A stretch of DNA of 40,314 bases. Source: a virus. The stretch lies in the IMG/VR virus record IMGVR_UViG_3300021378_002320, positions 1 through 40,314 of that record; one strand, 5' to 3'. The notes below the pieces were generated by a model. It saw only the letters and a list, made by a program, of their open reading frames with translations. It had not been told where the DNA came from and did not search any database. Positions 1-38,534 of the stretch are shown here, in pieces (position 1 is the stretch's first letter; each line of letters starts with the position of its first letter). A program made the position numbers and the translations under genes.

Positions 1-555
1 TACGGCAAGACCTTCCAGGACTTCAAATGCAATGTCCATATATCAGGCAGACAAGGTCCAGCCGGTATCAAACACGCAGTTAACACAAGATTATCTCAAG
101 AAGCGAGAAACTGCATTACGATCGAAAACGATGAAAACAAATGGGGCATCATGGACAGTCTTGAACTGGTCGACACCTGTGCCCTCGTACTTGACATACA
201 CCATCACTGGTGCCGTGAAGGTGAATACATTCGTCCTACCGACGATAGATTTACTCGCGTAATAGATTCGTGGCGTGGTGTACGTCCTGTGATACATTAT
301 TCATATAGCAGAGATGAAGCACTGCCAGAAGGCTTTGCACACAATACTATGCCTGACATGCCTGCACTATTAGAAGCAGGATACAAGAAAGGCAAACTAA
401 GAGCCCACAGTGACTACTATCCTAATAATGCTGTTAATGACTGGGCATTATCATTTTTACCATATGCAGATATTATGTGTGAAAGCAAAGCAAAAAATCT
501 AGCAAGTATTAACTTGCATAAATATTGTTATGAATTTGCAAGAAATCACAGATAG
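1..555 (+). CDS. uvsE: UV-damage endonuclease UvdE/UvsE, C-terminal part
   Basis: The frame is open from base 1, so the 5' end lies outside the window. 184 residues are visible, while the family is usually about 300 aa. The enzyme is a TIM-barrel endonuclease that nicks DNA 5' to UV photoproducts in a light-independent repair pathway. Family residues visible are the IENDENKWG segment (metal-ligand Glu), LDIHHHW (His ligands), VIHYS, HSDYY and the terminal CESKAKN motif, in the usual order. This is one of the clearer family matches in the window. The last 26 bases overlap the start of sodC, so a late promoter and the next start codon are embedded in this gene's 3' end. A phage copy would repair sunlight damage in surface seawater; that role is inferred from the family. 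Confidence 0.88.
   Translation, partial: YGKTFQDFKCNVHISGRQGPAGIKHAVNTRLSQEARNCITIENDENKWGIMDSLELVDTCALVLDIHHHWCREGEYIRPTDDRFTRVIDSWRGVRPVIHYSYSRDEALPEGFAHNTMPDMPALLEAGYKKGKLRAHSDYYPNNAVNDWALSFLPYADIMCESKAKNLASINLHKYCYEFARNHR
517..524 (+). promoter_or_regulatory. T4-type late promoter motif CATAAATA for sodC
   Basis: The octamer CATAAATA is followed by exactly five bases (ttgtt) and then the ATG at 530. In T4 late promoters (TATAAATA at about -13 to -6) that spacing puts +1 on the A of the start codon. The motif lies inside the end of the UV endonuclease gene. No Shine-Dalgarno precedes the ATG. Confidence 0.6.
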
Positions 556-16475: not shown

Positions 16476-16937
16476 ATGGGAAGAACATATAGAACAATGA
16501 ACGGACGTTCAGTTGACATGGACAAATTACGTTCTCAAAACGAACTTACTCCAGCAGTAGGTAATATGAAAGTAAATGCTAGAGGCGACGAACTCGGCGC
16601 TGGTGGCAAAATTACTCGTACACGTGAACAAATTGTAAGTTCATATTACGATTCAAATCCAAAAGCAACACCAGACGCAGATGTTCCAGCAGGAGAACCT
16701 GCAAAACCATCTACAGCACCAAACAATCCACCTTCGCAAACAATGACTATTGAAGATACTCAACCAAGTTCTATTGTTAATGAAGTTGAATCTGCTGTAG
16801 AAGAAGTTCCTGCGAAACAAGAAGCAACAAAACAACCAGAACAAGTAGAAGAAAAAGTGTTAGAAGTAGGTGTTGAAGCAGTTAAAAGAGCAAGAACAAG
16901 ACGCAAAGGCATATCGGACGCTACAGGAGAAAAGTAA
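16476..16937 (+). CDS. Conserved phage protein, disordered C-terminus (153 aa)
   Basis: The N-terminus (MGRTYRTMNGRSVDMDKLRSQNELTPAVGNMKVNARGDELG) looks like a conserved block; I recall similar NGR-VDMD-LR-QNE-TPAVGN text in marine T4-like phages. The middle (residues 60-100) is Pro/Ala/Thr-rich and probably disordered. Then comes a Glu/Val/Lys-rich helix and a basic end (KRARTRRKG). The Shine-Dalgarno AAAGGAGA is strong. It overlaps the co-chaperonin gene by one base (TAATG), so the two are coupled. Function unknown. Confidence 0.55.
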   Translation: MGRTYRTMNGRSVDMDKLRSQNELTPAVGNMKVNARGDELGAGGKITRTREQIVSSYYDSNPKATPDADVPAGEPAKPSTAPNNPPSQTMTIEDTQPSSIVNEVESAVEEVPAKQEATKQPEQVEEKVLEVGVEAVKRARTRRKGISDATGEK

Positions 16938-17329
16938 TGGCAAGAATTAAAACTGGAGGAATTAGACCAATCCACGATCATGTTTTAGTTACTGACTTAT
17001 ACTTTGGTGAACAGAAAACCAAAGGTGGAATTATTATTAGAGATGATAACGGTACTGCAAGAGGCGTTTATCCTCGTTGGGCAAAAGTTCATGCTAAAGG
17101 TCCTACGAACAAAGAAGAATATAACGTAGGTGATTATATCTTAGTTGAACATGGTCGTTGGACAAGAAAAATGGAATTAGATATAAATGGTGAAGACATT
17201 ACTTTACATAGAGTAGATGTTGATGCTATAATTGCTGTAAGCGATTCAAAGCCAGAAGACTACAAGATTGGCGATGAGTTTAACACAGCACCCGACCAAG
17301 TCAGACCAGAAGACTTTGGCGCTAGATAA
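16937..17329 (+). CDS. groES: GroES/gp31-like co-chaperonin (130 aa)
   Basis: The cpn10 start IRPIHDHVLVTDLYFGE, the mobile-loop region (EQKTKGGIIIRDDNGTAR, residues about 24-42) with its hydrophobic III GroEL-binding tripeptide, and the GDYILVEHGRW strand all fit. At 130 aa it is longer than bacterial GroES (about 95). The extra length is in a loop (GVYPRWAKVHAKGPTNKEEYN) and an acidic C-terminal tail, as in viral versions. In T4, gp31 replaces host GroES on GroEL so that the major capsid protein fits and folds. No groEL is present here, so the host chaperonin must be the partner. Strong Shine-Dalgarno. Confidence 0.88.
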   Translation: MARIKTGGIRPIHDHVLVTDLYFGEQKTKGGIIIRDDNGTARGVYPRWAKVHAKGPTNKEEYNVGDYILVEHGRWTRKMELDINGEDITLHRVDVDAIIAVSDSKPEDYKIGDEFNTAPDQVRPEDFGAR

Positions 17330-17343
17330 AAACGAGGAATAAA

Positions 17344-17763
17344 TTGAAAAACGTAGATCTAAACAAATATAAAGAATTTGTAAAACAAGTAACCAGTGAT
17401 GAATCACTATCAAGTATGCAGATGTATAATCGTATGATTGATATCGAAACTGTTGAAAGTGGAACAAAAGTTAATGCCGCATCACTTATGACAGGTGCTA
17501 TTGGCATTGCAAGTGAAGGAGGCGAATTTGCAGAAATTGTTAAAAAATGTATCTTCCAAGGTAAACCTATGGACGATGAAACTATATTTCATTGTAAACG
17601 AGAACTTGGCGATATTATGTGGTACTGGATTACTAGTTGTAGGGCTCTTAGTTTGGACCCTAACGAAGTAATCGAAGAAAACGTAAACAAATTAAAGTCA
17701 CGCTACCCTGGTGGAGAGTTCGACGTACACTATAGTGAGAATCGCAAAGACGGTGATCTTTAA
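17344..17763 (+). CDS. mazG: MazG-like nucleotide pyrophosphohydrolase
   Basis: 139 aa. The all-alpha NTP-PPase signature is present: Glu61-x-x-Glu64 in EGGEFAEIVKK and Glu87-x-x-Asp90 in KRELGDIMWYW. These bind Mg and the triphosphate. Family members hydrolyse (d)NTPs to (d)NMP plus pyrophosphate, and cyanophage MazG has been discussed in ppGpp and dNTP metabolism. The start is TTG with AGGA 6-7 nt upstream; no in-frame ATG occurs before Met25. It is followed directly (overlapping TAATG) by a HAD 5'-nucleotidase-like gene, which would give a dNTP to dNMP to nucleoside sequence. Confidence 0.82.
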   Translation: MKNVDLNKYKEFVKQVTSDESLSSMQMYNRMIDIETVESGTKVNAASLMTGAIGIASEGGEFAEIVKKCIFQGKPMDDETIFHCKRELGDIMWYWITSCRALSLDPNEVIEENVNKLKSRYPGGEFDVHYSENRKDGDL

Positions 17764-18332
17764 TGAAAATACTTATCGACGTTGATGGAGTAGTTTTAGA
17801 TTGGGAACCTGCATTTGATGCATGGATGACTAAACAAGGGTTTCGTGTAAAGAAGCCTGACGTATATAGTCAATATGTACGTTACGGGTTTCAACGTAAA
17901 AAACAATGCGATATCTTAGTAAAACAGTTCAACGAAAGTGCATGGATTGGTTACTTAAAACCTTTGCGTGATAGTGTTGAATGGGTTAGAAAATTTAAAC
18001 AACAAGGTTATAAGTTTGATGCTATTACTAGTTTATCAGAAGATGAATGTTCTGGTAAATTACGTGCATATAATTTAGAACAGGTATTTGGTACAGATAC
18101 ATTTGACCGTGTGTTATGCATTGGAACAGGCTCTGATAAAGACGAAGCACTATCTGAATATGATAAAGGACATTGGTGGATTGAAGATAAACCGGATAAC
18201 TGTGACGCAGGACTACGTGCAGGCCACAAACCTATTATTATATCACACAAATGGAACTTAGACTACGACAATCCCGATGTACAAAGAGCAGAAAACTGGG
18301 AAGACGTATATAAAATTATCACTTCTAATTAA
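17763..18332 (+). CDS. HAD-family phosphatase, 5'(3')-deoxyribonucleotidase-like
   Basis: 189 aa. HAD motif I is Asp6-x-Asp8 (MKILIDVDGVVLDW), followed by a helical cap (FDAWMTKQGF). Motif II is the Thr/Ser of the strand ending FDAITSLSEDE, and motif III/IV is WWIEDKPDNCDAGLRAGH (acidic IEDKPDN). The DVDGV-V pattern and size match NT5C-type nucleotidases. The substrate is not provable by eye, but the MazG-like gene is directly upstream and overlaps it. A second DMDGV HAD protein lies at 35810, with an extra N-terminal peptide and a basic tail. Confidence 0.75.
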   Translation: MKILIDVDGVVLDWEPAFDAWMTKQGFRVKKPDVYSQYVRYGFQRKKQCDILVKQFNESAWIGYLKPLRDSVEWVRKFKQQGYKFDAITSLSEDECSGKLRAYNLEQVFGTDTFDRVLCIGTGSDKDEALSEYDKGHWWIEDKPDNCDAGLRAGHKPIIISHKWNLDYDNPDVQRAENWEDVYKIITSN

Positions 18333-18531: not shown

Positions 18532-18945
18532 ATGATTGTTAAAGGAATTACATTCTCATCTTTTGATCTTTTCCATAGCGGACATGTTGCTATGCTTAAA
18601 GAAGCAAGAGCAAACTGCGACTATCTAATGGTAGGACTGCAAACTGATCCTACGCTTGACAGACCAGAAAAAAATAAACCTATTCAAAGTGTATTTGAAA
18701 GATATGTACAACTTGAAGGTTGCAAGTACATTGACGAAATCATTCCATATGCTACAGAACAAGATTTGCTTGACATACTATTAACGTATGACGTCAACAA
18801 ACGTTTTATTGGCGAAGAATATCGGACAAAAGACTTTACAGGAAAGCAATTATGTGTTGACAAAAGCATAGAAATTTATTATAATAAAAGACAACATTCA
18901 TTTAGTACAAGTGGATTACGCAAAAGGATAGAACAAAATGGCTAA
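18532..18945 (+). CDS. Cytidylyltransferase, glycerol-3-phosphate type (TagD-like)
   Basis: 137 aa. The nucleotidyltransferase signature HxGH is His15-Ser-Gly-His18 (FSSFDLFHSGHVAML). RYVQLEGCKYIDEIIPY matches the middle of TagD, and SFSTSGLRKRI near the end corresponds to the RTEGISTT-type phosphate-binding motif. The family transfers CMP from CTP to glycerol-3-phosphate or similar alcohol phosphates for envelope polymers; the phage substrate is unknown. Its promoter has host -35/-10 boxes and puts +1 on the ATG, with no Shine-Dalgarno. It overlaps gene 44 by eight bases, so it may head an early replication transcript. Confidence 0.82.
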   Translation: MIVKGITFSSFDLFHSGHVAMLKEARANCDYLMVGLQTDPTLDRPEKNKPIQSVFERYVQLEGCKYIDEIIPYATEQDLLDILLTYDVNKRFIGEEYRTKDFTGKQLCVDKSIEIYYNKRQHSFSTSGLRKRIEQNG

Positions 18946-26785: not shown

Positions 26786-27301
26786 ATGTTAGAAATAATT
26801 AAATATCCAGCAGAAGTATTAAACAAACAAATGCCTGCATTTGACTTTGAAAATCCAATTATGGATCCAATTGAACTTAAAGAAAAAATGTTAGAAGCAC
26901 AATTTGCTAATAAGGGTGTAGGGTTAAGTGCATGTCAAGTTGGCATTGAAACTGCGGCATTTACTATGGGCAGTGAACAATACAAAGACAAAGCACAAAT
27001 CTTTATTAATCCTACTGTATTAGATTCTAGTACTGATGTAGTTTTAGATATTGAAGGTTGTTTAAGTTTTCCTGGAGTGTTTGTACAAGTTAAAAGACCA
27101 ACTTGGATTGTTGCAGAGTTTTGGGATCAAAACGGAGAAAAACAAGTAGGAAGAATAGAAGGATACGATGCTCGTTGCTATCTACACGAGTGTGATCATT
27201 TAAATGGCATTGTGTTTAAAGACCGTGTTTCAAATTTAAAATGGGATATGGCTAGTAAACGTGCTAGAAAAAATATTAAAAAAGGATTATTTAATGCTTG
27301 A
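26786..27301 (+). CDS. def: Peptide deformylase
   Basis: 171 aa. All three catalytic motifs are intact: GVGLSACQ (44-51, motif GxGLAAxQ), EGCLS (90-94, metal ligand Cys92) and HECDH (134-138, ligands His134 and His138, catalytic Glu135). It removes the formyl group from nascent N-termini. It is of full bacterial length; some phage deformylases lack the C-terminal helix, but this one has a basic tail (ASKRARKNIKKG). It has a sigma70-type promoter with +1 at the ATG. The 3' end overlaps clpA by eight bases. Function in infection is inferred, for example faster maturation of phage or host photosystem/envelope proteins in relatives. Confidence 0.93.
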   Translation: MLEIIKYPAEVLNKQMPAFDFENPIMDPIELKEKMLEAQFANKGVGLSACQVGIETAAFTMGSEQYKDKAQIFINPTVLDSSTDVVLDIEGCLSFPGVFVQVKRPTWIVAEFWDQNGEKQVGRIEGYDARCYLHECDHLNGIVFKDRVSNLKWDMASKRARKNIKKGLFNA

Positions 27302-29567
27302 ACCTAATGAACAGTTAGAAGGAATTTTTGAAGAAGCAATCAAACTTGCTCAAACAGGTGAACATGAATATGTAACCATTGAACACTTTGCTATGGCATT
27401 AGTTTGTGATGAAGAATTTTCAAAAACACTAATAGAGTTTGGTGCAGACACAACTGCTATTAAAAAAGAATTGTCAGCATTTATTGGAGATAAACTTCAG
27501 GATATTATTGTACCTAATTTTAAAGGACGTCCTAAAAAAACACAAGCAATGGAACGTATGCTTAATAGAGCATTTACGCAAACACTATTCAGTGGTAGAA
27601 CTACAATAGATCCAATTGATGTGTTTTTATCATTATTAAAAGAAAAGAAATCATTTTCTGCATTCTGTATGCGGAAGCATGGTATTGACTCTGAAAAGTT
27701 TAGTAATTTTATTGAAGCAGAGCAAATAGTAGGTGAAGCGGCAAGTGAACAGTACAGCATGTCACAATTAGAAAAAATTATTTCATCATTCTGTGAAAAC
27801 CTTTCTGCAAAAGCAAAACGTGGTAAGATTGATCCAGTTATTGGTCGTGCTAACGAAATTGAAGAAACTGTGCTTATTCTTGCACGTAGACAAAAAGCAA
27901 ATGTAATGTTGGTTGGTGATCCTGGCGTAGGTAAAACTGCTATTGCTGAAGGACTTGCTGTTGAAATAGCAAATGATAATGTACCAGAGTTTATTAAAGG
28001 TAGTACAGTTTATTCATTAGACATTGGTGCTCTAGTAGCAGGTAGCAAATATAGAGGTGACTTTGAAGAACGTTTAAAAATGGTTATCCATGCATTAGAG
28101 AAAAAAGAAAAAGCAATCTTGTTCATTGACGAAGCACATATGATGAGTGGTGCTGGTTCAGGCGGTAGTGGACAATCAAATGATATGGCTAATATGTTAA
28201 AGCCTGCATTAGGTAAAGGAACTATTAAAGTAGTTGCTTCAACTACATGGGAAGAATATCGTAAGCACTTTGAAAAGGATCGTGCATTAATGCGTAGATT
28301 CCAACGTGTAACAGTTGACGAACCTACAGCAGAAGTTACTATAGATATTTTACACGGACTTAAAAAGTATTATGAAGCACATCACGGTGTAACAATTACC
28401 GACAAAGCAATTAATGGTGCTGTAACATATTCAGAAAAGTATATGGCAGATAAGAAACTACCAGATAAAGCAATTGATATTATTGACCGTGCTGGTGCTA
28501 GGTTTAAAGTTAAAGATGAAGAAAACGGTATAGTAGATCATGATCAGGTTGTTTTTGAAGTAAGTAAAATGACAAACTTACCATTAGAGCAAATTGCATC
28601 AAAAGAAACCGAAACACTTAAAGATTTAGAAGGTGGAATGAAAACAAAAGTATATGGGCAAGATGAAGCCATTGACGGACTACTTGATAAAATCTTTATT
28701 GCACAAGCAGGGCTGAAATCACTTAATAAACCCGTTGGTTCATTCTTATTTGTTGGTCCTACTGGTTGTGGTAAAACAGAAACAGCAAAAGTACTTGCAA
28801 GTGAAATGGGCACTGAACTTGTACGTTTTGATATGAGTGAATTCCAAGAAAGACATTCAGTTGCTAAATTTATAGGTGCACCTCCAGGATATGTAGGATT
28901 TGAAGAAGACGCAGGTCAACTTATTACTAAACTACAAGAACATCCTAATTGTGTACTATTGTTAGACGAAATTGAAAAAGCACACAAAGATGTTTCAAAT
29001 GTGTTGTTAGGATTAATGGACAATGGATTTGTTACAGGTTCAAATGGTAAAAAAGCAGATGCTCGTAATGCTATTGTTATTATGACATCTAACTTAGGTG
29101 CTAGAGAGATGGAGAAAAATGGTATTGGATTTGGTGACATGGATCGTTCAGGAGAACAAGACAATGCAGTAACAGATTTCTTTGCACCAGAATTTAGAAA
29201 CAGACTTGATGGTATTATTAAGTTTGATAAACTAGAAAGATCAACTATGATGTTAATCGTAGATAAGTTTATTAAAGAAGTTAATGATATGTTAGCAGAC
29301 AAAGGTATACTTATTGAACTTACTGATACAGTCAAAGAGTTTTTAGTTAAAAAAGGATTCAACAAAAAAATGGGTGCGAGACCATTGCAACGTGTTATTG
29401 ATGATCAAATTAAAAAGCCAATGAGTAAAGAAGTACTGTTTGGTAAGTTGGTTAACGGTGGACATGTTACTGTTGATTTAGAGGGTGAAAATATTACGTT
29501 AGATATACAGGAATTTATGCCAACGTTAGGAAAGGATACCCAACTTGAAGACCTCGCACACGACTAA
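27294..29567 (+). CDS. clpA: ClpA-like AAA+ unfoldase with intact ClpP-docking IGF loop
   Basis: 757 aa; E. coli ClpA is 758. The N-domain (1-150: EGIFEEAIKLAQTGEHEYVTIEHFAMAL) is complete. The first AAA+ has Walker A GDPGVGKT (residues 208-215) and Walker B ILFIDEAH (about 275-282). The second has GPTGCGKT (488-495) and LLLDEIEK (about 554-561). The loop NGIGFGD gives an IGF tripeptide at 611-613, at the position of the E. coli ClpA IGL loop (617-619) that docks on ClpP. So it can in principle feed the host protease; no clpP is in the window. The start at 27294 is preferred over an upstream alternative because AAAAAGGATT precedes it. It overlaps def by eight bases, so the two are coupled. 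Confidence 0.93.
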   Translation: MLEPNEQLEGIFEEAIKLAQTGEHEYVTIEHFAMALVCDEEFSKTLIEFGADTTAIKKELSAFIGDKLQDIIVPNFKGRPKKTQAMERMLNRAFTQTLFSGRTTIDPIDVFLSLLKEKKSFSAFCMRKHGIDSEKFSNFIEAEQIVGEAASEQYSMSQLEKIISSFCENLSAKAKRGKIDPVIGRANEIEETVLILARRQKANVMLVGDPGVGKTAIAEGLAVEIANDNVPEFIKGSTVYSLDIGALVAGSKYRGDFEERLKMVIHALEKKEKAILFIDEAHMMSGAGSGGSGQSNDMANMLKPALGKGTIKVVASTTWEEYRKHFEKDRALMRRFQRVTVDEPTAEVTIDILHGLKKYYEAHHGVTITDKAINGAVTYSEKYMADKKLPDKAIDIIDRAGARFKVKDEENGIVDHDQVVFEVSKMTNLPLEQIASKETETLKDLEGGMKTKVYGQDEAIDGLLDKIFIAQAGLKSLNKPVGSFLFVGPTGCGKTETAKVLASEMGTELVRFDMSEFQERHSVAKFIGAPPGYVGFEEDAGQLITKLQEHPNCVLLLDEIEKAHKDVSNVLLGLMDNGFVTGSNGKKADARNAIVIMTSNLGAREMEKNGIGFGDMDRSGEQDNAVTDFFAPEFRNRLDGIIKFDKLERSTMMLIVDKFIKEVNDMLADKGILIELTDTVKEFLVKKGFNKKMGARPLQRVIDDQIKKPMSKEVLFGKLVNGGHVTVDLEGENITLDIQEFMPTLGKDTQLEDLAHD

Positions 29568-33081: not shown

Positions 33082-33089
33082 AATAAATA
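33082..33089 (+). promoter_or_regulatory. Late promoter motif AATAAATA
   Basis: AATAAATACTCACATAAGG. Predicted +1 is near 33095, and AAGGAGAG is the ribosome-binding site for ATG 33112. It shares the extension CTC-x-x-ATAA with the motifs at 25267 and 37285. Confidence 0.6.
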
Positions 33090-33111: not shown

Positions 33112-34335
33112 ATGGATTTCAGAGAACTAATAAACAAACTTGATTCTTTTAATGTAGAAGCAAAGAAAGAACCAGAGAGGATGCAGTTTAGTGATGCAAT
33201 TAATCACGTAAACGATATCACTTTTACGCCACCAACACCAGCACAAAACGAATACAGCATTGCTAACAATGTAGCATTTAAAGGCAAAGACCTAACTGAT
33301 CCAAAAGTAAAACTTGCATTATTTCAAGATGAACTAAAACGCTCTCCAGGCAGATTGTTAGGTGAAATTGCACAACGCATTAAACCATCATCAGATGCAC
33401 AAATTGAATTAAGTATGTTTGTTGGTGAACTCAGTGAAAAAGAAAAAGGCACGATGTCTAAAGAACAACAGACACTTGCTATCGCAGTTATCAAACAAGC
33501 AATACGCAGTATGGATATTGAAAGAGATGCTGATCAAAGCACGTACAAAGATAGTGACGAGCCTGATGCATCTGAAATGGAATCAACGAACGAAGCAGAC
33601 TTTGACAGAAGTAGTGTAACCTATGATGAAGTATTACCATTTGTAAAGATGACTTACAAAGAGTTACTAACTGATCTTCAAACTGCAAGAAAAGATATAG
33701 AAACTTACAAAGCAGGTGGCGACACTGGAGAAGAAGGTGGCGACATAGATATGGTAATGCCATACCTTAGAGATTTAAAAGATATGCAAGTGAAAGTGAA
33801 AGCGATTCTTGATAATCCAGACATGGACATCGAAACTGTTGTTGACTATATGATGCCAGCAGATTTAGATACATCTCCAAGAGAAGATCTAATTGGAAGA
33901 TTTAAAAAATCATTTGCTAAAGATCCACAACTTGCAAAAAAATTATTTAAAGATCCTCAATTAGATTTTTATTCAGAAGGCGTAGAAGCAACTGAAGATG
34001 CAGAATGGTTTAAAGGACTAACTGATGTATCATTTAATGGTGATGAATTTTATGAAGCATTTGGTTGGATTGAAGAAAATGATGAAAATGTTGTAGAAGC
34101 AGAATACCAAGGACGTACTGTTAAACTAAACAAACCAATGCGTGGTGATGTTAAAAAGTTTAAAGTATACGTTACAAATCCAAAAGGCAATGTAGTTAAA
34201 GTTAACTTTGGTGATCCGGATATGAGAATTAAAAAATCTAATCCAGCAAGACGTAGAAGTTTCCGTGCTAGACACAACTGTGACAATCCTGGTCCTAAGA
34301 CTAAGGCACGTTACTGGTCATGTAGAAAATGGTAA
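33112..34335 (+). CDS. Putative internal-head/prohead protein with basic Cys C-terminal module (407 aa)
   Basis: It opens MDFRELINKLDSF, the first of a series of short related N-termini in this cluster. Residues 10-170 are helical and acidic with a disordered acidic stretch (DEPDASEMESTNEADFD). Residues about 300-360 form a beta-rich part (VEAEYQGRTVKLNKPMRGDVKKFKVYVTNPKGNVVKVNFGDP). It ends with MRIKKSNPARRRSFRARHNCDNPGPKTKARYWSCRKW, a basic Cys/Trp module found at the ends of prohead-associated proteins in marine T4-like phages. Late promoter upstream. Role in head assembly or packaged protein is inferred. Confidence 0.55.
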   Translation: MDFRELINKLDSFNVEAKKEPERMQFSDAINHVNDITFTPPTPAQNEYSIANNVAFKGKDLTDPKVKLALFQDELKRSPGRLLGEIAQRIKPSSDAQIELSMFVGELSEKEKGTMSKEQQTLAIAVIKQAIRSMDIERDADQSTYKDSDEPDASEMESTNEADFDRSSVTYDEVLPFVKMTYKELLTDLQTARKDIETYKAGGDTGEEGGDIDMVMPYLRDLKDMQVKVKAILDNPDMDIETVVDYMMPADLDTSPREDLIGRFKKSFAKDPQLAKKLFKDPQLDFYSEGVEATEDAEWFKGLTDVSFNGDEFYEAFGWIEENDENVVEAEYQGRTVKLNKPMRGDVKKFKVYVTNPKGNVVKVNFGDPDMRIKKSNPARRRSFRARHNCDNPGPKTKARYWSCRKW

Positions 34336-34341
34336 TTACAC

Positions 34342-34701
34342 ATGTTATTAAAAGAACTTTTTACATCAGACAGCAATAAGAATACTCCGCAATACGACTT
34401 AATAGATGATATTAGTTTCTTCATTGATAATGACGATTCAATCCATAAAGAATTCTTTTTACCTGCTATAGCAGATCTAAAAAGAAAAAATATTGTTGAA
34501 AAAGATTCAATTGAAGAAGTTGCACCATACTTTGAAGCAATGGTTACAGCAGGTTGTATGAAGTACAACGAAACTTATAATATATCTGGCAAGACTGAAG
34601 AAGTTTACACACAAGAGTTAATGTCTAGTATATGTCACAAACTAGCGGAAAAACACCTACCACACATTAAAGACGGCGCATACGATACCAAGGAGGCTTA
34701 A
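34342..34701 (+). CDS. Small protein with capsid-targeting-like N-terminus (119 aa)
   Basis: Starts MLLKELFTSD, a second member of the M-x-L-x-E-L series, with a possible L-K-E cleavage site. The body (YDLIDDISFFIDNDDSIHKEFFLPAIADLKRKN) is helical and acidic with no enzyme motif. CysHis text near the end (GCMKYNETYN, ICHKLAEKHLPH) could bind a metal weakly. It starts 6 bp after the previous stop and ends at the base before the next ATG. Unknown function. Confidence 0.5.
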   Translation: MLLKELFTSDSNKNTPQYDLIDDISFFIDNDDSIHKEFFLPAIADLKRKNIVEKDSIEEVAPYFEAMVTAGCMKYNETYNISGKTEEVYTQELMSSICHKLAEKHLPHIKDGAYDTKEA

Positions 34702-35601
34702 ATGCTACTCAACGAACTGCTTGAAGCACAACCAAAGAAGACAGCAGTAGTTGCTTGGGGAAGAATGAATCCGCCAACTATAGGTCACCAAAAAGTTATA
34801 GATGTTGTTAATCAACATGCACAAAAGTTTATGGGTGATCCTATTTTGTTTTTAACTAAAACACAAAAACCAAAAACAGACCCATTATCATTTGCAGAAA
34901 AATTACATTTTGCTCAAGAAATGTTTAATGTACCCGTAGATAAAAATACTAGTATAAAAACTATTATTCAAATGTTTCAACATCTACAAGGTAAAGGTTA
35001 TGATAATGTTATACTTGTTGCAGGAAGTGATAGAGTACAACAATATCAAGATTTAATTGACAAGTATAATAATAAACCAGATACTAAGGGTGAAATTCCA
35101 TTTAAGTTTGCAAACGCAAAAGTAGTAAGCAGTGGCGAACGTGATCCTGATGCAGAAGGAGTTGCTGGTATGAGTTCTAGTAAGGTAAAGAAACTTGCCG
35201 CTGAAGGAAAATTTGAAGATTGGAAAGACGAAACAGATCAAACACAGCCTGGTTTTAAAAGCAGTGTTCCTGGTAACGAAACTCTTGCAAAACAAATGTA
35301 CAATAGAGTACGTCAAGGTATGGGATTAGAAGTAAATGAAATAATGGGGTTTGCAACTAGAACTCCAAAAAGAAATGTAGTTAAAAGACGGCCTCCAGAA
35401 CCAGAAGAATTAAGTGTTGCAGATAAAATTAAAAAACGTAGAGCAATGGCCAATAAGGTAGGTGTAGATAAAGCATTCAAACATAACAGTTTACAGAAAC
35501 AAGAAGCCGCAGGTGTTGGCATTGTTACAAAGCAAAACACAACTAAAGATGTTAAAAAAGGTACTCTTAAAAAAATGATGAAAGCGTACAAACTAATATG
35601 A
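34702..35601 (+). CDS. Nucleotidyltransferase (NadR/cytidylyltransferase superfamily) with capsid-targeting-like N-terminus
   Basis: 299 aa. Residues 1-9 (MLLNELLEA) hold an L-L-E|A site like that of gp21. Then AVVAWGRMNPPTIGHQKVID gives the superfamily's (H/T)xGH as Thr26-Ile-Gly-His29; AGSDRVQQY and GMSSSKVKKLA (about 157-165, equivalent of the ISSTxxR motif) complete the alpha/beta phosphodiesterase-like fold seen in NMN adenylyltransferases. Residues 210-299 are a basic helical tail (NVVKRRPPEPEELSVADKIKKRRAMANK). AMP or CMP transfer to a phosphate substrate is expected; the substrate is unknown. It lies in a probable head-protein cluster. Confidence 0.7.
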   Translation: MLLNELLEAQPKKTAVVAWGRMNPPTIGHQKVIDVVNQHAQKFMGDPILFLTKTQKPKTDPLSFAEKLHFAQEMFNVPVDKNTSIKTIIQMFQHLQGKGYDNVILVAGSDRVQQYQDLIDKYNNKPDTKGEIPFKFANAKVVSSGERDPDAEGVAGMSSSKVKKLAAEGKFEDWKDETDQTQPGFKSSVPGNETLAKQMYNRVRQGMGLEVNEIMGFATRTPKRNVVKRRPPEPEELSVADKIKKRRAMANKVGVDKAFKHNSLQKQEAAGVGIVTKQNTTKDVKKGTLKKMMKAYKLI

Positions 35602-35813
35602 CATTAGATGAGTTAAAAAGATTAGCAGGTGTAGATGTTGTTAGAAATGATAATCATCAAACATTAGAAAACATGTCACATACTGCACAAGAACTAAAAG
35701 ATAAAGAACGTAAGTTAGGTGTCAAACCCGGTGACAAAGAATGGTTTGAATTATGGTTTTCAAGACCTTATATGACTGGCGCAGGATTTAAAGGATTTAG
35801 AGGACGTAAATGA
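35598..35813 (+). CDS. Small unknown protein (71 aa), coupled between nucleotidyltransferase and HAD genes
   Basis: Starts MTLDELKRLAGV, with ATG overlapping the previous stop (ATGA), and its own stop overlaps the next ATG. The N-terminus again fits M-x-L-x-E-L. Then a helix (NMSHTAQELKDKERKLGVKPGDKEWFELWFSRPYMTG) with a WF-ELWFSRP motif and a basic end (GFRGRK). Probably a small helical binding protein. No family recognised. Confidence 0.5.
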   Translation: MTLDELKRLAGVDVVRNDNHQTLENMSHTAQELKDKERKLGVKPGDKEWFELWFSRPYMTGAGFKGFRGRK

Positions 35814-36517
35814 GATTATTTGAAATCAGTAGTAATTCAAAATCTGAAATCTATGTAGACATGGATGGTGTACTTGTTGACTTCTTTGGTGCCTGGGCAA
35901 AACTTATGGGTACAAAAGACTTTCGTGATATTAAAGATATCGATGCAGGTCTTCAAGCAATTAGAGATGCAGACAACTTTTGGTTAGATCTCGAACCTAC
36001 TCCTAACGCAGGAAAACTTTTGGCTTTGATTCAAAAACATAAAGGCAGTTATACTATTTTAAGTTCGCCTTTGGCTGACGATCCTAGATCAGAACCACAT
36101 AAACGTATGTGGGTGAAAAACAATCTTAAACAGTTTCCACCTAAATCAGTAATCATCACAGGAAACAAAGCCAAGTATGCACAGCAAAGTGATGGTACTC
36201 CTAACATACTAATAGATGATTTTGGGCAAAATATTGATAAATGGAACGCCGCCGGCGGACTTGGAGTCAAGCACAAAGATCATAAATTCGAAAGAAGTTT
36301 TAAAGCAATACTATTACACTTAGATAGTAATAATGTAAAAGAAAACTTTGCCGACGGTAAAAAAAAGGGTAAAAGTCGTCCGGGAAGAGTAAAGAAGTCG
36401 GGTGCTAGTTGTAACGGATCAGTTACAAGTTTAAGAGCAAAGGCTAAAAAAGCAAGTGGTGAAAAGGCTAAAATGTATCACTGGTGTGCTAATATGAAGA
36501 GTGGAAAGAAGAAATAA
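35810..36517 (+). CDS. HAD phosphatase (NT5C-like) fused to a basic Cys tail
   Basis: 235 aa. The short N-terminal peptide MRLFEISSNS is followed by HAD motif I Asp17-x-Asp19 (IYVDMDGVLVDF). The cap and core run through SYTILSSPLADDP (motif II Ser) and ILIDDFGQNIDKW (motif III/IV acidic pair), the pattern of 5'(3')-deoxyribonucleotidases. From about residue 182 there is a separate module: GKKKGKSRPGRVKKSGASC...AKMYHWCANMKSGKKK, Lys/Ser-rich with two Cys and a Trp, probably nucleic-acid binding. A plain HAD relative without these additions is at 17763. The domain order suggests a packaged or DNA-bound nucleotidase; inference only. Confidence 0.75.
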   Translation: MRLFEISSNSKSEIYVDMDGVLVDFFGAWAKLMGTKDFRDIKDIDAGLQAIRDADNFWLDLEPTPNAGKLLALIQKHKGSYTILSSPLADDPRSEPHKRMWVKNNLKQFPPKSVIITGNKAKYAQQSDGTPNILIDDFGQNIDKWNAAGGLGVKHKDHKFERSFKAILLHLDSNNVKENFADGKKKGKSRPGRVKKSGASCNGSVTSLRAKAKKASGEKAKMYHWCANMKSGKKK

Positions 36518-36519
36518 TA

Positions 36520-36711
36520 ATGTTAAGTAAACAATGTAAACTACACCTAAAAGAACAAGGTGAAACAGGATTACAGCATATGAGGAAGGCAATTAAAACA
36601 GCAGTAAAATTACAACTGCTAGTACCTGCACTACTAGTACATAGTATTGCTCCAAGATGCTTTACTAATACAGCAACTAATGTTATGAAAAACATTCTTA
36701 AAGATAGGTAA
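36520..36711 (+). CDS. Small DUF6356-like protein (63 aa)
   Basis: MLSKQCKLHLKEQGETGLQHMRKAIKTAVKLQLLVPALLVHSIAPRCFTNTATNVMKNIL. The S-K-x-C-K-x-HL-x-E-x-G...H...VHSI-P-x-x-F-x-x-T-x-x-N pattern matches a family of short alphaproteobacterial and phage proteins that I recall as DUF6356. A hydrophobic helix lies at about 29-43. The function is unknown. It starts 2 bp after the HAD gene. The next gene's late promoter motif overlaps its 3' end. Confidence 0.55.
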   Translation: MLSKQCKLHLKEQGETGLQHMRKAIKTAVKLQLLVPALLVHSIAPRCFTNTATNVMKNILKDR

Positions 36712-36714
36712 ATA
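36707..36714 (+). promoter_or_regulatory. T4-type late promoter motif GGTAAATA
   Basis: GGTAAATA overlaps the previous stop codon, then five bases (tcaat) and ATG 36720. Predicted +1 is on the start codon. No Shine-Dalgarno at a usable distance. Confidence 0.5.
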
Positions 36715-36719
36715 TCAAT

Positions 36720-37289
36720 ATGCGTTTAAAAGACTTAGTAGAAGCAATAAAAAAATTAGAACCAAGTAAATCACGTGATCCTAATTGGCGTGATATGGAA
36801 GCACTACGTAAAAGCGGTGCATCTGGCTCTCATAAAGATAAAACTAAGACTATTCCACGTAAAGAAAAATACAAAAAAACACCTATGGAACAACAGTTTG
36901 AAAGTTTTGTATCTGAAAAGATTACTAAAGATACTGAAATGGGTGATGTTATTAAAGATTTCTACAAAAGCGATGCTCCGCAATTTAAAGGTAAGAGCAA
37001 AGCAAAACGTAGACAAATGGCTATTGCGGCCAAACTTAGTCAAGAATCTAGCGATATATTCAAAGGATTAGAACAAGTTGAAGAAACAGCAACAGCAGGG
37101 GCAACAGTTTCTGCTAGTATTGCATCAGTTGCAAGTCCGCATTTAGCAATAGGTGACGAAAACACACGTAAAAAATACGGTTTAGTAGGCGGTTTACCTA
37201 ATCCTCCCAAAGCAAAAAAGCAAAAGCCAACAGATAATGCTCTTAATATGAAAGACACATCTATCTTCGGCGGACCCCTCAAACGATAA
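36720..37289 (+). CDS. Basic phage protein with capsid-targeting-like N-terminus (189 aa)
   Basis: Starts MRLKDLVEAIKKLEPSK, with an L-V-E|A site at residues 6-9 like the T4 gp21 target. Then NWRDMEALRKSGASGSHKDKTKTIPRKEKYKK, a Lys/Arg-rich low-complexity part; a middle (EMGDVIKDFYKSDAPQFKGKSKAKRRQMAIAAKL, residues about 72-105) I recall from other marine phages; and an Ala-rich then Pro/Lys-rich end. No enzyme motif. Probably nucleic-acid binding or an internal head protein. Leaderless transcription is likely. Confidence 0.5.
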   Translation: MRLKDLVEAIKKLEPSKSRDPNWRDMEALRKSGASGSHKDKTKTIPRKEKYKKTPMEQQFESFVSEKITKDTEMGDVIKDFYKSDAPQFKGKSKAKRRQMAIAAKLSQESSDIFKGLEQVEETATAGATVSASIASVASPHLAIGDENTRKKYGLVGGLPNPPKAKKQKPTDNALNMKDTSIFGGPLKR

Positions 37290-37292
37290 ATA
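37285..37292 (+). promoter_or_regulatory. Late promoter motif GATAAATA
   Basis: GATAAATACTCGTATAAT overlaps the stop of the upstream gene. Predicted +1 is near 37298; TAGGAG is the ribosome-binding site for ATG 37330. The extension matches the motifs at 25267 and 33082. Confidence 0.55.
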
Positions 37293-37329
37293 CTCGTATA
37301 ATACAGTAAACACATTATAGGAGCAGTCA

Positions 37330-37782
37330 ATGATCAATGAAGACCAGTACGATGAACCAGCATCAAAGTACGAAGATGAAATGCTTGCCAATCAGGTTGC
37401 ATACATCAAATACGCAGTAGAAGAAATTCATGACCATGTACACAAGGGTGGAACATTCCCTGAGTGGTTTCAAAACAAATTCAGTGGTGTACACGAAAAA
37501 GTAAAAACACTTCATGCTTATATGGAAGGCGAGCGTATGCAAGCCAAAGAACGTGAACGTATGATGAGTATGAAGGATGCCAAAGATGATTATTTTGAAT
37601 CACTAGAACGTAAACTTAACGAGTCTAAAGGTATTTGCAAAGAATGTGGCAAGCCAAGTTATACTACATTGCCTGAAGAAAAGCAAAAAGGTGTTGACGG
37701 TAAAGTATGCTGGAAAGGCTACAAGCGTATGGGCACCAAGAAAAAAGGCGGAAAGACTGTAGACAACTGTGTCAAAATGTAG
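37330..37782 (+). CDS. Head-cluster protein with Cys-rich basic C-terminus (150 aa)
   Basis: MINEDQYDEPASKYEDEMLANQVAYIKYAVEEIHDHV... The first 100 residues form acidic amphipathic helices (likely coiled coil), including the Met/Arg-rich GERMQAKERERMMSMKDAK. The last 50 residues contain a possible zinc knuckle (GICKECGKPSY) and CWKGYKRMGTKKKGGKTVDNCVKM, a motif common at the ends of phage proteins. So this gene, like 33112 and 35810, pairs an individual body with a basic Cys-containing C-terminal module. Unknown function, late promoter and strong ribosome-binding site. Confidence 0.5.
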   Translation: MINEDQYDEPASKYEDEMLANQVAYIKYAVEEIHDHVHKGGTFPEWFQNKFSGVHEKVKTLHAYMEGERMQAKERERMMSMKDAKDDYFESLERKLNESKGICKECGKPSYTTLPEEKQKGVDGKVCWKGYKRMGTKKKGGKTVDNCVKM

Positions 37783-37791
37783 GGAGTAATT

Positions 37792-38379
37792 ATGGCAGAC
37801 TTACAAAAAATTCTAAACAAACTTACTGAATTAGGAATTGAAAATAAAGGACTTACTGTAGATGCTCCGCAACAAGGACAGGCTTTACAAGAACAAAAAA
37901 GTAATAGCCAAGGTACAGATGCTACATCTCATGCACGTATGGTTGCAGAAAGTATTAAAGGAAAACATATTCCTGGTGTAAGTGATACTAGTGCAAGTGA
38001 TATGGCCGCACTAGCAGGAGTAGGTAATACAACTCCAAATGTGCAGAAAAGTGTTGAAGTTGTTCAAACTTATCCGCAAAATACTGTAGACAATAAGTGG
38101 CATGAAGTAGACAGTAGACTTTCAAAAATTGAAAATACACTAGCAAAAGTGTTTGAAAGCCTTGAAGGTTTAAAACAAATGAGTAACGAAGAATATCGAG
38201 AAAAAAGAAAAGCGTTACAAGATATACAATTAAATCCTGAAACAAACAAAGATCCTAAACTTAAAAAAGAGTTAATACGTAGGAAGTTTGAATTAGAAAA
38301 AGATTATAAAGCAGGTAAAATAACTACAGAAGATACTTTGAAAAAAGGATTTGCAAGTTTTTTGAAAGAGTTTGAGTAA
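37792..38379 (+). CDS. Helical coiled-coil protein of unknown function (195 aa)
   Basis: MADLQKILNKLTELGIENKGL... Residues 25-95 are Gln/Ser/Thr-rich, low complexity. Residues 100-195 are helical (NKWHEVDSRLSKIENTLAKVFESLEGLKQM, then KKELIRRKFELEKDYKAGKITTEDTLKKGFASFLKEFE), likely coiled coil, as in scaffold or core proteins. GGGAG ribosome-binding site. Its stop overlaps the start of the following 51-aa ORF by one base. I have no family name. Confidence 0.5.
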   Translation: MADLQKILNKLTELGIENKGLTVDAPQQGQALQEQKSNSQGTDATSHARMVAESIKGKHIPGVSDTSASDMAALAGVGNTTPNVQKSVEVVQTYPQNTVDNKWHEVDSRLSKIENTLAKVFESLEGLKQMSNEEYREKRKALQDIQLNPETNKDPKLKKELIRRKFELEKDYKAGKITTEDTLKKGFASFLKEFE

Positions 38380-38534
38380 TGAAAATATGTGAAGTAACAG
38401 ATTACTTCTACGGATTAGATCCGGCACATATGTCATACAAGCATAAAATAGGCGATGTGTATGGCAAGAAAAATTTAAAAGTACCACATGCAAAACTGCA
38501 TGTAAAAAAGAAACAAAAGAAACAAAAGAAATAA
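38379..38534 (+). CDS. Tiny Lys-rich ORF (51 aa)
   Basis: MKICEVTDYFYGLDPAHMSYKHKIGDVYGKKNLK... ends with a KKKQKKQKK run. It overlaps the previous stop by one base (TAATG), so coupling is likely. The N-terminus (M-K-I-x-E-V) loosely fits the short N-terminal pattern of this cluster. The body is too short to judge. No motif. Confidence 0.4.
   Translation: MKICEVTDYFYGLDPAHMSYKHKIGDVYGKKNLKVPHAKLHVKKKQKKQKK

Follow-up and report, generated by a model that had tools for sequence, protein, structure and literature searches.

Probable internal-protein cargo genes with capsid-targeting-like leaders in a marine T4-like myophage

Results

In a 40,314-base virus record (IMGVR_UViG_3300021378_002320, positions 1 to 40,314; hereafter the window), a 40-kb fragment of a marine T4-like myophage, we analyzed an island of genes at positions 33112-38534, many of which begin with a short N-terminal peptide, or leader, resembling the capsid-targeting sequence (CTS) of T4 internal proteins. 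A preliminary description of 33112-37289 had proposed that such leaders send enzymes into the phage head for delivery to the host. Our analysis extends this island and indicates that, together with a superoxide dismutase (SOD) gene at 530-1084, it is very likely the internal-protein cargo of the phage. The island and its promoters comprise the following features, all on the + strand (arrows mark predicted protease cuts; aa, amino acids):

33083..33089, +: T4-type late promoter box ATAAATA, assigned by sequence, upstream of the island
33112..34335, +: 407-aa protein with leader MDFRELINKLDSFNVE↓AKKE, an acidic variable middle and a basic two-cysteine C-terminal module (RHNC...YWSC)
34342..34701, +: 119-aa helical protein with leader MLLKELF
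34702..35601, +: NMNAT/cytidylyltransferase-like enzyme whose leader MLLNELLE↓A (34702-34725) abuts the domain
35598..35813, +: 71-aa protein whose N-terminal LDELKRLAGV (about 35604-35633) matches the C-terminal motif of scaffold protein gp22 in relatives
35810..36517, +: HAD 5'-nucleotidase-like enzyme with leader MRLFEISSN and a basic two-cysteine C-terminal module from about 36341
36520..36711, +: leaderless 63-aa DUF6356 protein (PF19883, 7.5e-9) with a low leader-test score
36720..37289, +: 189-aa basic protein with leader MRLKDLVE↓A (36720-36743) and a second predicted protease site, VEE↓TATAGAT, at 37085/37086
37286..37292, +: second late promoter box ATAAATA, assigned by sequence
37330..37782, +: leaderless 150-aa protein with a basic two-cysteine C-terminal module (CWKGYKRMG...NCVKM)
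37792..38379, +: 195-aa protein with a long leader, MADLQKILNKLTELGIE, resembling that of 33112, and the C-terminal end GFASFLKEFE
38379..38534, +: 51-aa basic protein (isoelectric point 9.9) with leader MKICEVTD, missed in the preliminary description

When the open reading frames (ORFs) are read from their starts, six of the seven genes in 33112-37289 begin M-x-[L/F]-x-[E/D]-[L/I], as had been claimed: MDFREL (33112), MLLKEL (34342), MLLNEL (34702), MTLDEL (35598), MRLFEI (35810) and MRLKDL (36720), with 36520 (MLSKQC) as the sole gene that does not fit. The pattern M.h.[EDQ]h, which was picked post hoc, occurs in 6/7 island genes and in 2/47 other window ORFs (Fisher p=7e-6); the leader-bearing SOD accounts for one of the two matches outside the island. 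Beyond 37289 the long leader of 37792 and the MKICEVTD of 38379-38534 continue the series. Tight gene packing, with several genes overlapping by a few bases, might instead suggest that the shared N-terminus reflects a constraint of translation or gene overlap, such as start-codon context, and carries no protein signal. However, the same residues are spelled with different codons (MLL as ATGTTATTA or ATGCTACTC, MRL as ATGCGTTTA or ATGAGATTA), the pattern is rare among the equally packed genes elsewhere, and its conserved residues (3, 5 and 6) are interspersed with free ones, leaving such an explanation with next to no probability. RNA-level and start-codon accounts were accordingly rejected on codon usage, and a signal peptide was rejected because the leader is too short and too charged.

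The placement of the island under late promoters, also proposed previously, holds: ATAAATA stands at 33083 and 37286 and is found nine times on the coding (+) strand of the window versus once on the - strand, a strand bias pointing to late expression. An additional property of these boxes is their position exactly 5 nucleotides 5' of an ATG in 81 of 332 unique contexts (14 for the next best spacing; window 518, 2268 and 30532 plus loci of relatives), counts that are non-independent as the contexts are partly homologous. Given a T4-like late start site, this spacing implies that the A of the AUG would be the first nucleotide of these late mRNAs, making them leaderless; a literature search returned no report of such leaderless late mRNAs.

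The bodies attached to the leaders include two recognizable enzymes, which profile matches identify as the preliminary description had it. The product of 34702 matches PF01467 above cut-off and phrog_3041 (4.5e-41), and contains the nucleotidyltransferase-fold motifs GRxNPPTxGH and SSSKxKK, with invariant columns in an alignment of relatives. That of 35810 matches PF06941 (1.3e-7, above cut-off) and phrog_2643, and has the DMDGVL and DD motifs of HAD NT5C enzymes. Both folds also have a leaderless paralogue outside the island in the same window, providing controls:

17763..18332, +: HAD/NT5C paralogue (PF06941) with a domain-first start, MKILIDVDGVVLDW
18532..18945, +: cytidylyltransferase-like paralogue (PF01467, 2.2e-12) with a domain-first start, MIVKGITFSSFDLFHSGH

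Among the other proteins, the conserved C-terminal module of 33112 corresponds to phrog_7595 (E 5e-12), and its N-terminus is kept in relatives with lengths of 293 to 842 aa. An AlphaFold2 model of 34342 gives residues 1-16 mostly below 50 confidence and a helical bundle that begins at residue 17; its fold search against the PDB yielded no match at E below 0.001. Four short basic two-cysteine modules occur at the C-terminal end of larger proteins or, among relatives, straight after a leader. The 35810-type module stands alone after a leader at locus L010 (MRIFEVVE↓NFADGKKKG...), and that of 37330 follows leaders in relatives (MRIIEVTE↓GTRCWKGY..., MKIMEVTNNTCPEC...). Cleavage would then yield small basic peptides, as for T4 internal proteins. 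Some relatives of 37792 begin MDFNKILNKFNDLGIEAK, like 33112, and end SLFKEYLEF. CTS-like segments are present at other C-termini too (S-SM2_163, S-SCSM1_93 and window 37792: KKRTFKEFLEYIE, GKTLKEFLENI, SLFKEYLEF, GFASFLKEFE), hinting at C-terminal targeting tags.

In T4, internal proteins reach the core by means of propeptides of 10-19 residues (the CTS); in IPIII, targeting is sensitive to residues 4 and 7 and processing to residues 8 and 10; gp21 cleaves after L/I-x-E (PMC9026906). The leaders in the T4 record read MKTYQEFIAEA (IPII and IPIII), MELITELFDED (Alt), MLKEQLIAEA (gp22) and MAKINELLRES (gp24). With a profile built only from the marine nucleotidyltransferase leaders, ten T4 core, internal or cleaved head proteins rank as a group above the remaining T4 proteome (p=7e-4). 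Individual ranks in this mixed-register profile are modest (IPI 88th and gp21 171st of 253), making single-protein prediction weak, and we therefore used the group trend alone. The cleavage rule carries over to the window in part: 34702 and 36720 conform to (L/I)xE↓A, with LLE↓A and LVE↓A, respectively, while the further LKE, LDE and LFE sites that had been suggested are weak, being followed by a hydrophobic residue. We rejected protease cleavage as a property common to the six named leaders, both because several sites precede a hydrophobic residue and because the motif of 35598 is a different one.

To compare N-termini across relatives, as the preliminary description had called for, we drew on viral-contig scans that returned 23 nucleotidyltransferase loci (80 by a more distant search), 69 SOD loci and 49 loci for 36720. 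The peptide is conserved, an outcome that favors the cargo reading, which loss of the peptide from conserved bodies would have contradicted. In the 34342 family, whose bodies diverge to 16-20% identity, all 27 members have a hydrophobic residue at positions 3 and 6, and 25/27 have E or D at position 5. Many further unrelated small island genes in relatives begin alike (MRARDFIIEGKQ, MRYYEIISEAW, MRIIEVTEGTRCW, MRICEVTEVV, MRFKEFDQKN, MRIFEVVENFADG). When residues 2-10 were scored with a leave-one-family-out profile, 16 of the 26 island families exceeded 95% of 170 outside families from the relatives (Kolmogorov-Smirnov p about 3e-11, a value that is optimistic because some island subfamilies share ancestry). 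A T4-type tag is carried by 47 of 75 distinct nucleotidyltransferase N-termini versus 7 of 165 background families, and most nucleotidyltransferase relatives have (L/I)xE at the leader end. Collectively, a short N-terminal peptide of common pattern is borne by non-homologous bodies, as in T4-type CTS-tagged proteins.

Similar starts were also observed away from the island. In one relative with a 181.9-kb contig (G001), leader-bearing genes outside its island (reverse-complement coordinates 140008, 142610 and 83044) begin MDFKKYLAE↓A, MRIYELTE↓R (a 57-aa basic protein) and MLLKEFFYFD, the last adjoining a portal-like gene. In Methylophilales phage Melnitz (L024, 82-1131), a RimK-like ATP-grasp enzyme begins [M]TQKFSQFITE↓E and is a candidate further cargo enzyme.

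The predicted cargo set is not confined to the island, and a probable second cargo site lies 32 kb from it:

518..524, +: late promoter box, exactly 5 nucleotides ahead of the SOD start codon
530..1084, +: Cu/Zn SOD (PF00080, 3e-46) with leader MNLQEI, a Cys-rich basic module, an LTE↓S site (after 616) and the SOD domain

The Cys-rich basic module (CPRTKAxxCxC) precedes the LxE↓[AS] site and the enzyme domain. Among 42 distinct relatives, 37 have I or L at P3 and 36 have A or S at P1', with P2 varying freely; the search pattern fixed E at P1 and admitted six residues at P3. Among the SOD loci (L128-L196), two relatives (L173 and L179) have SOD after another leader-bearing body, and at L148 SOD and a nucleotidyltransferase are apparently in one reading frame.

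Homologues of 34702, along with syntenic neighbors, have been detected by mass spectrometry in virions of isolated cyanophages. These comprise the putative cytidylyltransferase T4-GC190 of S-SM1 (PMC3037559), ORF91 of S-SCSM1 (PMC9602691), ORF154 of S-CREM2 with its neighbors 155, 156 and 160 (PMC10665884) and cytidylyltransferase 140 of S-SZBM1 (PMC9146016). All four have a T4-like tag ending in (L/I)xE↓A: MKKFSAFLNE↓A (the S-SM1 gene bearing that cluster number), MKSFLQFLKE↓A, MKNFSSFLTE↓A and MRFRQFIIE↓A, respectively, compared to MLLNELLE↓A in the window. In the S-SCSM1 record, ORFs 89-93, 95 and 97 are annotated as virion proteins, amounting to seven of the nine genes of a syntenic island placed between mazG/helicase and primase. 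A targeting peptide goes unmentioned in the passages of these four virion reports that we consulted, and a literature search on capsid targeting in cyanophages led only to the T4 review (PMC9026906). An alternative explanation for these detections is that the proteins act in the infected cell, as late or auxiliary metabolic enzymes of the ordinary kind, and reach virion preparations as carry-over of abundant proteins. The S-CREM2 authors themselves raise carry-over (PMC10665884), and the enzyme peptide counts are low (three unique in S-CREM2, few in S-SZBM1). Nonetheless, the detections are independent, involve four phages and different groups, and include neighbors from the same island, and a leader with an (L/I)xE↓A site would have no role in such a scenario, which we consider improbable.

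To relate the leaders to head maturation, we turned to G001, in which island (locus L022) and head genes, assigned by gp23 homology, order and sequence, occur together. It is this relative, and not the window fragment, that has a T4-type scaffold and capsid protein together with a prohead protease whose specificity, judged from the gp23 LxE site, is the same. The G001 gp23 site is RKYLAE↓AATAGATSAGNVATLNRV, and the clade consensus is RKYLxE↓[AST]ATAGATSAGN, in which L and E are invariant in 70/70 distinct N-termini and the middle residue is variable; the residues after the cut are mostly [STA]ATAGATSAGN[VI]AT. The 36720 family contains a gp23-like segment, [TV]A[TS]AGATSAGN[IV]A, preceded by [LIVM]xE, at VEE↓TATAGAT in the window and at LDE↓VASAGATSAGNVA and LNE↓IASAGATSAGSIA in relatives. 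Tiny proteins of relatives join a leader straight onto this segment (MRAKEFISE↓VATAGATSAGSIA, MRIKEVITE↓VASAGATSAGNIA). Cyanophage virion proteins S-CREM2 ORF160 and S-SCSM1 ORF97 contain GFTGxxAxxGPxAGYDP, which resembles the N-terminal region of cyanophage gp23. Capsid protein and cargo therefore have matching protease-type sites.

The gene at 35598 scores poorly against the leader profile and has a conserved start, LDELKRLAGV, that instead matches the C-terminus of the scaffold protein gp22, which has an LxxLR[KR]LAG[LI]-type end in 74/74 relatives; no other ORF of 80 aa or more, out of 1319, has this tail motif at either end. The 35598 protein might share its binding partner with the scaffold tail. 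These capsid-site and scaffold-tail copies within the cargo are its least expected element and look, as sequences, like extra assembly signals. They raise the possibility, which we put forward tentatively and hold at slightly below even odds, of a multi-signal cargo code in marine T4-like phages in which protease, shell and scaffold each recruit cargo. The signals would be the CTS-like leader, the gp23 maturation site together with the start of the mature protein (LxE↓xATAGATSAGN here, GFTGxxAxxGPxAGYDP in cyanophages) and the gp22 tail motif (LxxLRxLAG), and SOD and the NMNAT-like enzyme would be injected with the DNA.

Alternatively, the leader could send the proteins to another virion part, such as the baseplate, the tail or the outer capsid, or bring them to the scaffold solely to help assembly, in which case they would not be injected. 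Detection in virions leaves the location of a protein open, and 35598 and 36720, which repeat the scaffold tail motif and the mature capsid N-terminus, would suit assembly factors or inner-wall proteins. By contrast, a nucleotidyltransferase, a nucleotidase and an SOD are improbable as scaffolding, and the leaders resemble those of T4 internal proteins and precede prohead-protease-type sites; we therefore regard this alternative as unlikely, albeit the strongest of the three considered here.

Discussion

Overall, we favor the interpretation that 33112-38534 and the SOD encode internal-protein cargo and that viruses of this kind probably deliver preformed enzymes into the host together with the genome. 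For the window's own proteins, we infer packaging by targeting, cleavage, an in-head position, ejection and a host role of the enzymes. Late transcription from the boxes at 33083 and 37286 would produce leader-bearing proteins, and the leader, with core M-[R/K/L]-h-x-E-h and in many cases an (L/I/V)-x-E↓A end, would act as a CTS by binding the prohead scaffold core. A prohead protease homologous to gp21 would then trim the leader, with a second internal cut in 36720 and SOD. The nucleotidyltransferase, the 5'-nucleotidase-like enzyme, SOD and the small basic two-cysteine proteins would stay among the DNA and be ejected with it into the next host. There, a role in nucleotide/NAD metabolism and oxidant defense during the first minutes, when the host may mount a defense, would be the most plausible.

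The preliminary description was right about the N-terminal pattern and very probably about its meaning. Its cargo-island reading is largely supported, with the amendments that 35598 has a different motif, that 36520 and 37330 are untagged and that the end of the island had been set too early. Several observations weigh against the cargo interpretation. A clean (L/I)xE↓A is confined, among the named genes, to 34702 and 36720; the leader ends of 33112, 34342 and 35810 are not clean by sequence, and the conserved E↓A of 33112 is no strict (L/I)xE site, its hydrophobic residue being displaced by one. About eight of the 75 nucleotidyltransferases begin directly at the domain, tagless, which identifies the tag as a detachable module, and the HAD homologues at L010 and L012 are leaderless. 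A prohead protease model had no match in the window fragment, which is without the head genes gp21, gp22 and gp23, a null that is uninformative because these genes lie elsewhere; in G001, the gp21-like protein lacks a clear site at its N-terminus. Finally, not every island virion protein of S-SCSM1 has an island-type leader, and beyond the S-CREM2 authors' caution on carry-over, virion mass spectrometry does not distinguish inside from outside location.

If correct, our interpretation implies that abundant ocean phages deliver ready metabolic and protective enzymes with the genome, ahead of phage gene expression. It would also account mechanistically for the NMNAT-like enzymes that have repeatedly, and without explanation, been found in cyanophage virions, and it would yield a sequence-only rule for predicting internal cargo across thousands of uncultured phages. 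Cultured relatives offer a direct test of packaging through the leader, capsid-site and scaffold-tail motifs. Separately, the same fragment encodes a GroES-like co-chaperonin, a peptide deformylase, a Clp-type AAA+ ATPase and an iron-sulphur assembly protein (16937-17329, 26786-27301, 27261-29567, 1543-1938).

A close parallel exists with T4 IPI, IPII, IPIII and Alt, which likewise are late gene products with a short leader of the same shape, an (L/I)xE site and unrelated, in part small and basic, bodies. Alt is an enzyme too, and T4-type internal bodies, like these, are not conserved between phages. Unlike in T4, the leader here is mostly 8-9 residues with its M-[R/K/L]-h-x-E-h core, the bodies are NMNAT-like, 5'-nucleotidase-like, SOD or two-cysteine proteins with no match to T4 internal proteins or Alt in the searches made, several tagged genes share one operon, and gp23-like and gp22-like segments are added. 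The hypervariable internal-protein loci of T-even phages are similarly plastic late loci of tagged, unrelated small proteins; however, T4-type roles are anti-restriction (IPI) and RNA polymerase modification (Alt), whereas the island encodes metabolic enzymes. The inner-body and ejection proteins of phiKZ and SPN3US are also head-internal and have propeptides that a gp21-related protease cuts after E, but they belong to another lineage and are other proteins than those of the island, and we know of no short CTS-like leader of the island pattern in them. Homologous to 34702 are the Kyanoviridae virion NMNAT/cytidylyltransferases (T4-GC190; S-SM1, S-SCSM1 ORF91, S-CREM2 ORF154, S-SZBM1_140), which have a T4-like leader and whose gene sits between helicase and primase in S-SM1, S-SCSM1 and S-SZBM1; compared to theirs, the leader of 34702 is shorter and abuts its domain directly.

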